The notes under the pieces were generated by a model. The model did not search any database. It was not told the DNA's origin and was given only the letters and a program-made list of their open reading frames with translations. DNA of 64,000 bases from Endomicrobium proavitum (lineage in GTDB: Bacteria; Elusimicrobiota; Endomicrobiia; Endomicrobiales; Endomicrobiaceae): assembly GCF_001027545.1 (NCBI RefSeq), contig NZ_CP009498.1, positions 496,001 through 560,000 on the forward strand. The letters run 5' to 3'. Shown in pieces: positions 23,708 through 24,887 of this stretch (within the stretch, counting starts at the first letter, position 1; every line of letters starts with the position of its first letter). A program made the translations under genes and the position numbers.

Positions 23708-23973
23708 GTATTTTTGAAATAATTATGCTGTTATGTTTTGCGTTTGCGTGGCCGTTTTCAATAAGAAAATCTTTTGTGTCAAAAAGCAACGCAGGTAAAA
23801 GCGTGTGGTTTCTTATTATTGTGTTAGTCGGTTATGTTGCGGGTATAACGCACAAACTTATATACAATTACGATAATGTAATTTTCTTATATTGTTTCAA
23901 CTTCGCGCTTGTATTTACCGACGCTGTTTTATACGTTAGGAATTATTTTATACAAAAATCAAATAATTGTTGA
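23704..23973 (+). CDS. small membrane protein, possibly PQ-loop-like
   Basis: This 89-residue protein has three hydrophobic segments (about residues 4-18, 34-51 and 58-78). The pattern WPFSIRKSFVSKSNAGKS followed by a helix recalls the first half of PQ-loop/SemiSWEET transporters, but the PQ itself is replaced by WP, so I do not assign a function. It overlaps the flavoprotein gene by four bases. A promoter -35 box for the next transcript overlaps its stop. Confidence 0.65.
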   Translation: MSIFEIIMLLCFAFAWPFSIRKSFVSKSNAGKSVWFLIIVLVGYVAGITHKLIYNYDNVIFLYCFNFALVFTDAVLYVRNYFIQKSNNC

Positions 23974-23997
23974 CAAAAGTTTTTATATAAGTATATT
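23970..23997 (+). promoter_or_regulatory. sigma-70 promoter upstream of the CAGA microsatellite
   Basis: A perfect TTGACA is followed after 16 bases by TATATT (an alternative -10, TATTAT, gives 18). Transcription would begin near 24004, immediately before the tetranucleotide array. Confidence 0.65.
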
Positions 23998-24015
23998 ATA
24001 TAACTATGAAAATTT

Positions 24016-24064
24016 ACAGACAGACAGACAGACAGACAGACAGACAGACAGACAGACAGACAGA
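24016..24064 (+). repeat. tetranucleotide microsatellite (CAGA)12
   Basis: There are about twelve uninterrupted copies of CAGA/GACA over 49 bases, between a consensus promoter and an outer-membrane protein gene. A 12-base period makes every reading frame encode Arg-Gln-Thr-Asp repeats. Perfect tetranucleotide tracts of this length are prone to slipped-strand copy change. Confidence 0.97.
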
Positions 24065-24101
24065 GTCTTAAAAGACACTGTTGTTATTGATTTTTTTATA
24101 T

Positions 24102-24140
24102 AAAACCTGTTTTTATTTGAAAAAACAAAACAGGTTTTTT
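24102..24140 (+). terminator. terminator-like hairpin between the microsatellite and the barrel gene
   Basis: AAAACCTGTTTT pairs with AAAACAGGTTTT around a 13-base loop and is followed by TT. It would end a short transcript carrying the microsatellite, or attenuate the gene at 24180. Confidence 0.7.
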
Positions 24141-24179
24141 CTATTTCTGCATAGTAAGTTAAAATATAAAGGAGGCAGT

Positions 24180-24887
24180 ATGAAAAAAATTGTTTTAGTT
24201 GCAGCAGTGGTTGTAGCGTTTACAAATTTAGCGTTTGCTGAATTTGGTATTTTCGGTAACATAAGAGGCTCGGGAAACAGCAGTAACTTTAAAGATTTCG
24301 CCTCGGCGCCAGCTCCAACTTTAGTAGGTCCATCACAGAAATTTAGCAAACAATCGCCTGAAGAACATGGAATGACTCCGGGTTTTGGAGTTTTTTATGA
24401 ACATTCAAAATTATTTGGTATGAGTGAAAAAAGTTACATAGGCGTTAACGTCAGCTATAATGGTATAGGTGAAGACCGTTTAGGATATAGCATAGAGGAC
24501 TCTGTGTATAGTATTCAACATGCGCAGGTAACGTCTAACGGATACCAAATTCCTATAACTGTTTATTATAAGTATAAAACAAGTCCGAAGTTTGCGTTAA
24601 AAGCCGGCGCCGGAGTAACATATGTGTTTTCAAAATGGGAATTAGAATATATAGAATCGCATATTGCGGGTTCTGCTTCTAAAACAGAAACAATTCTTGC
24701 TCCTCATGTAGATTTAGGCATTGAGTGGATTCTTGGAAAAGTAGTTACTTTAGGATTTGATTTGTCTTATGCTTTAGGCGGTAAAAGCAATAACCCATAC
24801 ATTCTTCTCGGTTATGAAAGCGTAAAATTAAATAGAGATTTTTCCGGGCTTTACGCCGGCGCAAATTTGAGATTTTATATTCTGTAA
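24180..24887 (+). CDS. outer-membrane beta-barrel protein of unknown function
   Basis: This 235-residue protein has a signal peptide MKKIVLVAAVVVAFTNLAFA. The mature protein is built from alternating aromatic strands (SYIGVNVSYNGIG, FALKAGAGVTYVFSK, LSYALGGKS) and ends LYAGANLRFYIL, a typical last barrel strand. It resembles small opacity-type barrels. AAAGGAGG precedes the ATG by a short spacer; a longer in-frame start upstream would read through a terminator hairpin. The microsatellite and hairpin upstream suggest unusual expression control. Confidence 0.8.
   Translation: MKKIVLVAAVVVAFTNLAFAEFGIFGNIRGSGNSSNFKDFASAPAPTLVGPSQKFSKQSPEEHGMTPGFGVFYEHSKLFGMSEKSYIGVNVSYNGIGEDRLGYSIEDSVYSIQHAQVTSNGYQIPITVYYKYKTSPKFALKAGAGVTYVFSKWELEYIESHIAGSASKTETILAPHVDLGIEWILGKVVTLGFDLSYALGGKSNNPYILLGYESVKLNRDFSGLYAGANLRFYIL

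Follow-up and report, generated by a model that had tools for sequence, protein, structure and literature searches.

The CAGA leader of an outer-membrane barrel gene

The window analysed here, i.e., the whole 64 kb stretch of the chromosome of the termite-gut bacterium Endomicrobium proavitum, contains a forward-strand gene at 24180-24887 encoding a 235-aa protein with a signal peptide, which matches the outer-membrane beta-barrel family OMP_b-brl of Pfam (PF13505, E 1.2e-6, above the cut-off) and has distant homologues in other Endomicrobiia. The gene is preceded by an AGGAGG Shine-Dalgarno sequence (24170-24175, +) and is the predicted target of the leader upstream of it. This leader opens with a sigma-70-type promoter (23970-23999, +; 11/12 consensus matches), composed of a -35 box TTGACA at 23970-23975 and a -10 box that can be read on the same strand either as TATATT at 23992-23997 (spacer 16) or as TATTAT at 23994-23999 (spacer 18); the promoter overlaps the stop codon of an upstream 89-aa ORF (23704-23973), and transcription is predicted to start at about 24004-24007. 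About 10 nt past that start lies a perfect microsatellite (24016-24064, +), (ACAG)12.25 or (CAGA)12 with a 100% match, whose TRF score of 98 is the highest of the 55 rows in the window, the runner-up scoring 57; a chance origin of the tract was ruled out by this score and by a genome pattern search. The tract is separated from the gene by an intrinsic terminator (24102-24140, +), in which a hairpin at 24102-24138 with the arms AAAACCTGTTTT/AAAACAGGTTTT (-10.8 kcal/mol) runs into six T residues at 24135-24140. The promoter, the twelve copies, the terminator-like hairpin and the barrel nature of the 24180 gene had all been proposed in an earlier sequence-only reading of this DNA, and each was recovered here.

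The same reading had placed the tract outside the coding frame of the barrel, which is correct: 115 nt separate the end of the tract from the ATG at 24180, a distance that rules out phase variation of the barrel through its own reading frame. Haemophilus genes of the lgtC type, with which the locus had been compared, are linked to a surface structure and carry their slipped-strand tetranucleotide tract within the reading frame. Tetranucleotide slippage and the link to the surface are alike in the two cases, whereas the tract of the window stands in the leader and not in the frame of the controlled gene, and the comparison is not apt.

The CAGA tract is spanned by a 21-codon upstream ORF (uORF; 24006-24071, +), MKIYRQTDRQTDRQTDRQTES followed by its stop codon, whose presence had also been noted before. 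No Shine-Dalgarno sequence was found for this uORF, and its ATG sits at the predicted transcription start, so that it would be read without a leader; the uORF is probably leaderless, and leaderless initiation would be required for its translation. Its layout is resembled by that of the uORF ACTATGAAAAT in a relative (G090). In the current frame (n=12), the uORF ends at an early TAA (24069-24071, +), 30 nt upstream of the hairpin, and the gene is predicted to be OFF. One copy more (n=13) would move the stop to a TAA at the hairpin base (24101-24103, +), predicted ON, while one copy fewer (n=11) would move it to a TGA 11 nt before the hairpin (24088-24090, +), predicted intermediate, so the three exit-frame stops lie at -30, -11 and +2 nt relative to the hairpin. 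The stops at 24069 and 24101 had been recognised earlier; the third-frame TGA had been overlooked.

Nine CAGA leaders and their relatives

The circular chromosome of E. proavitum Rsa215 comprises 1,588,979 bases in a PacBio assembly (PMC4505116). A genome pattern search for (CAGA)5 gave 114 and 34 overlapping matches, which fall into exactly nine loci with at least five units: 131588, 154115, 367690, 477904, 520016 (the window locus), 643011 (-), 861045 (-), 1360039 and 1408343, hereafter named by their kilobase position. The other eight were absent from the sequence-only reading. All nine tracts are located in leaders of surface or outer-membrane-type genes with CAGA on the coding strand, and no tract falls within the frame of a conserved gene. 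OMP_b-brl barrels (Pfam) follow the tracts of the window, 1360k and 1408k, while 131k precedes an OmpA-domain protein and then an AIDA-type adhesin, its downstream genes recurring at 861k. The 367k tract precedes a protein with Chlamydia PMP repeats; 154k and 643k precede large proteins with signal peptides and no clear Pfam family, and the start of the 477k protein is the same signal region as in these two. As a separate observation, the two-gene block recurring at 131k (L069 5713-10001) and 861k (L074 1-4617), a 452-aa protein plus the AIDA-type adhesin, is near-identical. In addition, the 643k surface gene (L073 160-4858, -) is split into 422- and 1112-aa frames, for which a frameshift, an assembly error or within-gene switching are candidate causes.

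The order of elements is the same at every locus: a promoter-like site comes first, then a start codon whose reading frame continues into the tract, then the tract itself, and finally an intrinsic terminator ahead of the gene. Most of the other loci have TATAAT or TATACT -10 boxes, and the promoters of 131k and 643k are weak. A uORF start with a frame through the tract is present in all nine leaders, being a GTG at 1408k and, like the promoter, uncertain at 131k. A clear Shine-Dalgarno sequence was found only at 1360k (AAAGGGATAAGCAAATG) and in the relatives G004 and G008:C48. In the 5' flank common to four E. proavitum loci, the start codon lies at RTGATTTA just 5' of the tract, and at the window, 367k and 477k, an ATG coincides with the predicted transcription start or lies only a few bases from it.

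The terminators of the nine loci (-10.8 to -25 kcal/mol, each with a T-run) begin 37-75 nt 3' of the tract. The background consisted of 46 genes whose upstream gap measures 80 nt or more; 15 of them have a terminator, and six of these 15 are CAGA loci. With the CAGA loci excluded, terminators occur at 9/40 of these genes, versus 9/9 CAGA loci (Fisher 2e-5). The tract and terminator might instead form a separate short transcript (a small RNA or a dead end), the barrel being transcribed from a promoter between the terminator and the ribosome-binding site and the tract having no role. Room for such a promoter exists in the 27-81 nt between terminator and gene, where 131k has a promoter-like site with 10/12 matches; most of these gaps hold weak sites only (6-9/12; 8/12 in the window), the arrangement recurs at nine surface genes, and the long leader frame of 477k fuses with its gene. 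Rfam gathering-threshold matches were tRNAs only, which sets aside a known RNA family, and at the window leader there were only two far sub-threshold hits (SCARNA7, 22/65 bits; Enterococcus sRNA, 17/100 bits), taken as low-complexity noise. A separate transcript is accordingly quite improbable, while a weak promoter downstream of the terminator may exist.

The same layout is found in G090, G091 (a rumen Endomicrobia MAG), G085 (Candidatus Ruminimicrobiellum ovillum) and G008, in the last without a clear ATG. G004 has two leaders of this kind, one before a barrel homologue and one before the surface gene next to it; both consist of a Shine-Dalgarno sequence, an ATG, a (CAACAGC)n tract (n = 9 and 4) and a terminator, within nearly identical flanks. 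None of these repeat units, 4 nt (CAGA) or 7 nt (CAACAGC), is a multiple of 3; since each copy of the 7-nt unit likewise moves the reading frame by one, the conserved trait is the ability to shift the frame and not the repeat sequence. Among about 50 barrel-homologue loci scanned, a leader repeat of tetra- to heptanucleotide units was found, besides E. proavitum, only in G004, and one other locus has TG7; the rarity of repeat leaders among barrel homologues indicates that the switch is independent of the gene family. The three genomes of the same genus showed no CAGA tract of at least 6 units. Many tracts in draft genomes lie at contig ends, so drafts undercount them.

Exit frames and the proposed attenuation model

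Of the three exit frames of each E. proavitum locus, one ends early, 30-63 nt short of the hairpin, and one or more extend as far as the hairpin, enter it or pass through it; at the eight loci other than the window locus, the early frame ends 36-63 nt before the hairpin and the others end from -8 nt to far beyond. The long frames of 154k and 643k end at an ATGA overlapping the gene start, and 477k is the sole locus where a leader frame can fuse in frame with its gene. Several of the loci are paralogous, leaving five independent 3' families in E. proavitum, which together with G090, G091, G085, G008 and G004 give ten independent leader families of Endomicrobiaceae. Exactly one early and two late frames were found in 9/10 families versus 1.7 expected from dinucleotide shuffles of the spacer (p ~5e-7), with OFF/ON thresholds picked when the Streptococcus gallolyticus values were known and the data already seen; the excess persists for 20 pairs of thresholds (p 1e-7 to 8e-4). 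A weaker criterion, which asks for one or more early and one or more late frames, holds in 10/10 families (p 5e-4 to 0.04). Taken by itself, the window locus provides weak evidence, as 0.25 of shuffled spacers give the one-early/two-late pattern.

Judged by the most plausible start, 8/9 E. proavitum uORFs are in the early-stop frame (p 0.001 under random frames), the exception being 367k in a late frame; omitting the uncertain 131k leaves 7/8 (p 0.003). Since the tracts comprise about 10-58 units, the longest at 367k, the common frame is not explained by a common length. This suggests selection on the uORF frame, and also that most members of the set are OFF in the cultured strain.

The best explanation of the CAGA leaders, to which we assign a probability of roughly 0.7, is a phase-variable transcription attenuator. 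Transcription would begin just upstream of a uORF whose codons are supplied by the CAGA repeats; slipped-strand changes in copy number (+/-4 nt) would shift its frame. In the early frame, ribosomes would stop 30-63 nt before the hairpin, the terminator would form and the surface gene would be OFF, while in the late frame or frames they would reach or cover the 5' arm, prevent the terminator and leave the gene ON. Copy number would most likely act by setting the uORF frame, with ribosomes then preventing the terminator from forming or allowing it to form. In this way the CAGA device would control nine surface loci of E. proavitum independently. The sequence-only reading had proposed this route from copy number through uORF frame and stop position to termination or read-through, and the route gains support from the anatomy common to all nine loci and from a mechanism proven in S. 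gallolyticus.

In S. gallolyticus, GCAGA repeats located within the ORF of a leader peptide control the pil1 and pil3 pili (Danne et al. 2014, PMC3894217). A uORF stop 39-49 nt before the terminator gives low expression, OFF being assigned at >=28-49 nt upstream, while a stop at most 4 nt from or inside it gives high or ON expression, and the mechanism is backed by chloramphenicol, start-codon and terminator mutants (PMC3894217). The E. proavitum loci have the sequence-level features of this attenuator, with a promoter, a uORF with a non-triplet repeat, a terminator, a surface gene and matching stop distances. The streptococcal system is Gram-positive and concerns pilus operons with a 5-nt unit at two loci in the genome, whereas the Elusimicrobiota leaders have 4-nt and 7-nt units, nine loci, some probably leaderless uORFs and long frames coupled or fused to the gene, and their predicted targets are outer-membrane barrels, OmpA and PMP/AIDA-like proteins.

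The tract could also vary and matter without being translated, if CAGA repeats at the 5' end of the RNA altered its stability, protein binding or termination in a graded manner. Graded effects of tracts upstream of ORFs are known: in Moraxella catarrhalis, an (AGAT)n tract upstream of uspA2 has a graded effect on mRNA level, and this case resembles ours in that a tetranucleotide tract lies upstream of, and outside, an outer-membrane protein ORF, while differing in the graded effect and in that a uORF and a terminator go unmentioned in the part of that source considered here (PMC7302503). A position at the 5' end of the RNA also fits the window tract, given the short distance from predicted start to tract, and the Clostridia and Desulfuromonadales, where among the matches listed transcription is predicted to start at the edge of the tract or within it, downstream of the ATG. 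Such an effect would not predict the one-early/two-late frame pattern, the common frame of 8/9 loci, the genuine Shine-Dalgarno-ATG leaders at 1360k and in G004, or the replacement by a 7-mer unit, and it is considered unlikely.

The leaders are mosaic. Their 5' flanks form the groups {154k, 643k, 861k, 1408k} and {367k, 477k}, and their 3' flanks the groups {154k, 477k, 643k} and {367k, 861k, 1360k}; homology changes at the tract, which seems to have been the breakpoint for recombination that exchanged promoter and terminator halves among the nine loci. Near-identical paralogous leaders with different copy numbers are seen in 154k versus 643k and in the two leaders of G004. Such shuffling, and a patchy spread with tract plus T-run matches in 8/341 Elusimicrobiota genomes, would also be expected if the repeats were neutral or selfish microsatellites, or part of a mobile leader cassette copied between loci, and did not affect regulation. 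Confinement to surface-gene leaders in sense orientation, the enrichment of terminators and frames, the frame bias and the convergent 7-nt version all speak against this, making it highly improbable.

If the attenuator reading is true, nine surface proteins would be switched independently (512 combinations if each is two-state) through a translation-counted attenuator in E. proavitum, a cultured relative of termite-gut symbionts, and an assembly would suffice to predict the ON/OFF state of each gene. A mechanism proven in one Streptococcus would thereby become a general class recognisable from sequence. As close relatives live inside gut flagellates as intracellular symbionts, the loss or retention of surface variation could be traced along the transition from free-living to endosymbiont. 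The design has been proven so far only in one Streptococcus, and what would be new is a genome-wide set in another phylum; compared with the sequence-only reading, this analysis adds the set of nine loci, the statistics on frames, the version with a 7-nt unit and a counterpart proven by experiment. A literature search limited to open-licence papers returned no further repeat-controlled leader-peptide attenuator and no report of phase variation in Elusimicrobiota.

CAGA leaders beyond Endomicrobium

Species-representative genomes were scanned for (CAGA)5 with T6 at 90-120 nt downstream, giving at least 80 loci, which among the matches listed belong mostly to Clostridia and Desulfuromonadales. 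Within these listed matches, hairpins of -12 kcal/mol or lower precede 63% of the T-runs versus 12% of other T-runs on the same contigs (p 2e-18), and 45/56 leaders have at least one early and at least one late frame versus 33 expected (p 1e-4). The clostridial tracts among the matches listed directly follow a TTGACA-TATAAT promoter, overlapped by ATG and Shine-Dalgarno-like motifs: an ATG lies in the spacer at 28/31 tracts versus 39/114 control sites, and 17/31 tracts versus 6/114 controls have a Shine-Dalgarno-like motif upstream of the -35 box, which means that the start codon precedes the predicted transcription start, a point that speaks against the attenuator reading.

Repeat-controlled attenuators could thus constitute a widespread, independently recurring class of contingency switch rather than a streptococcal curiosity, with CAGA between promoter or uORF start and terminator ahead of genes with surface or sensory roles in Elusimicrobiota, Clostridia and Desulfuromonadales, in whole sets per genome (nine in E. 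proavitum) and with halves exchanged by recombination through the tract; this proposal is tentative, and we put it slightly below even odds.

Several minor observations were also made. The tracts of L183-L262 (among the matches listed) lie directly after a sigma70 promoter in Clostridia or a sigma54-type GG-N10-GC site in Desulfuromonadales, the promoter being overlapped by ATG and Shine-Dalgarno-like motifs, and are followed by a strong terminator and often by a signal-peptide or sensor gene. In the relatives G031 (L079 4421-5069, G031:C16) and G007 (L081 4809-5678; L080), CAGA tracts lie in the coding frames of an HsdS-like specificity protein and a SAM-methyltransferase-like protein, respectively, names that were assigned by eye, and encode TDRQ repeats, i.e., they would represent ordinary ORF phase variation. 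G188, a member of the Elusimicrobiota outside Endomicrobiaceae, has 38 CAGA plus T-run matches. L201 and L251 (MAG Cd354_bin122) have a 3' flank with the same TACTCT start, and L094 (G079:C134) is a long mixed CAGA/AAGA array in an intergenic position.
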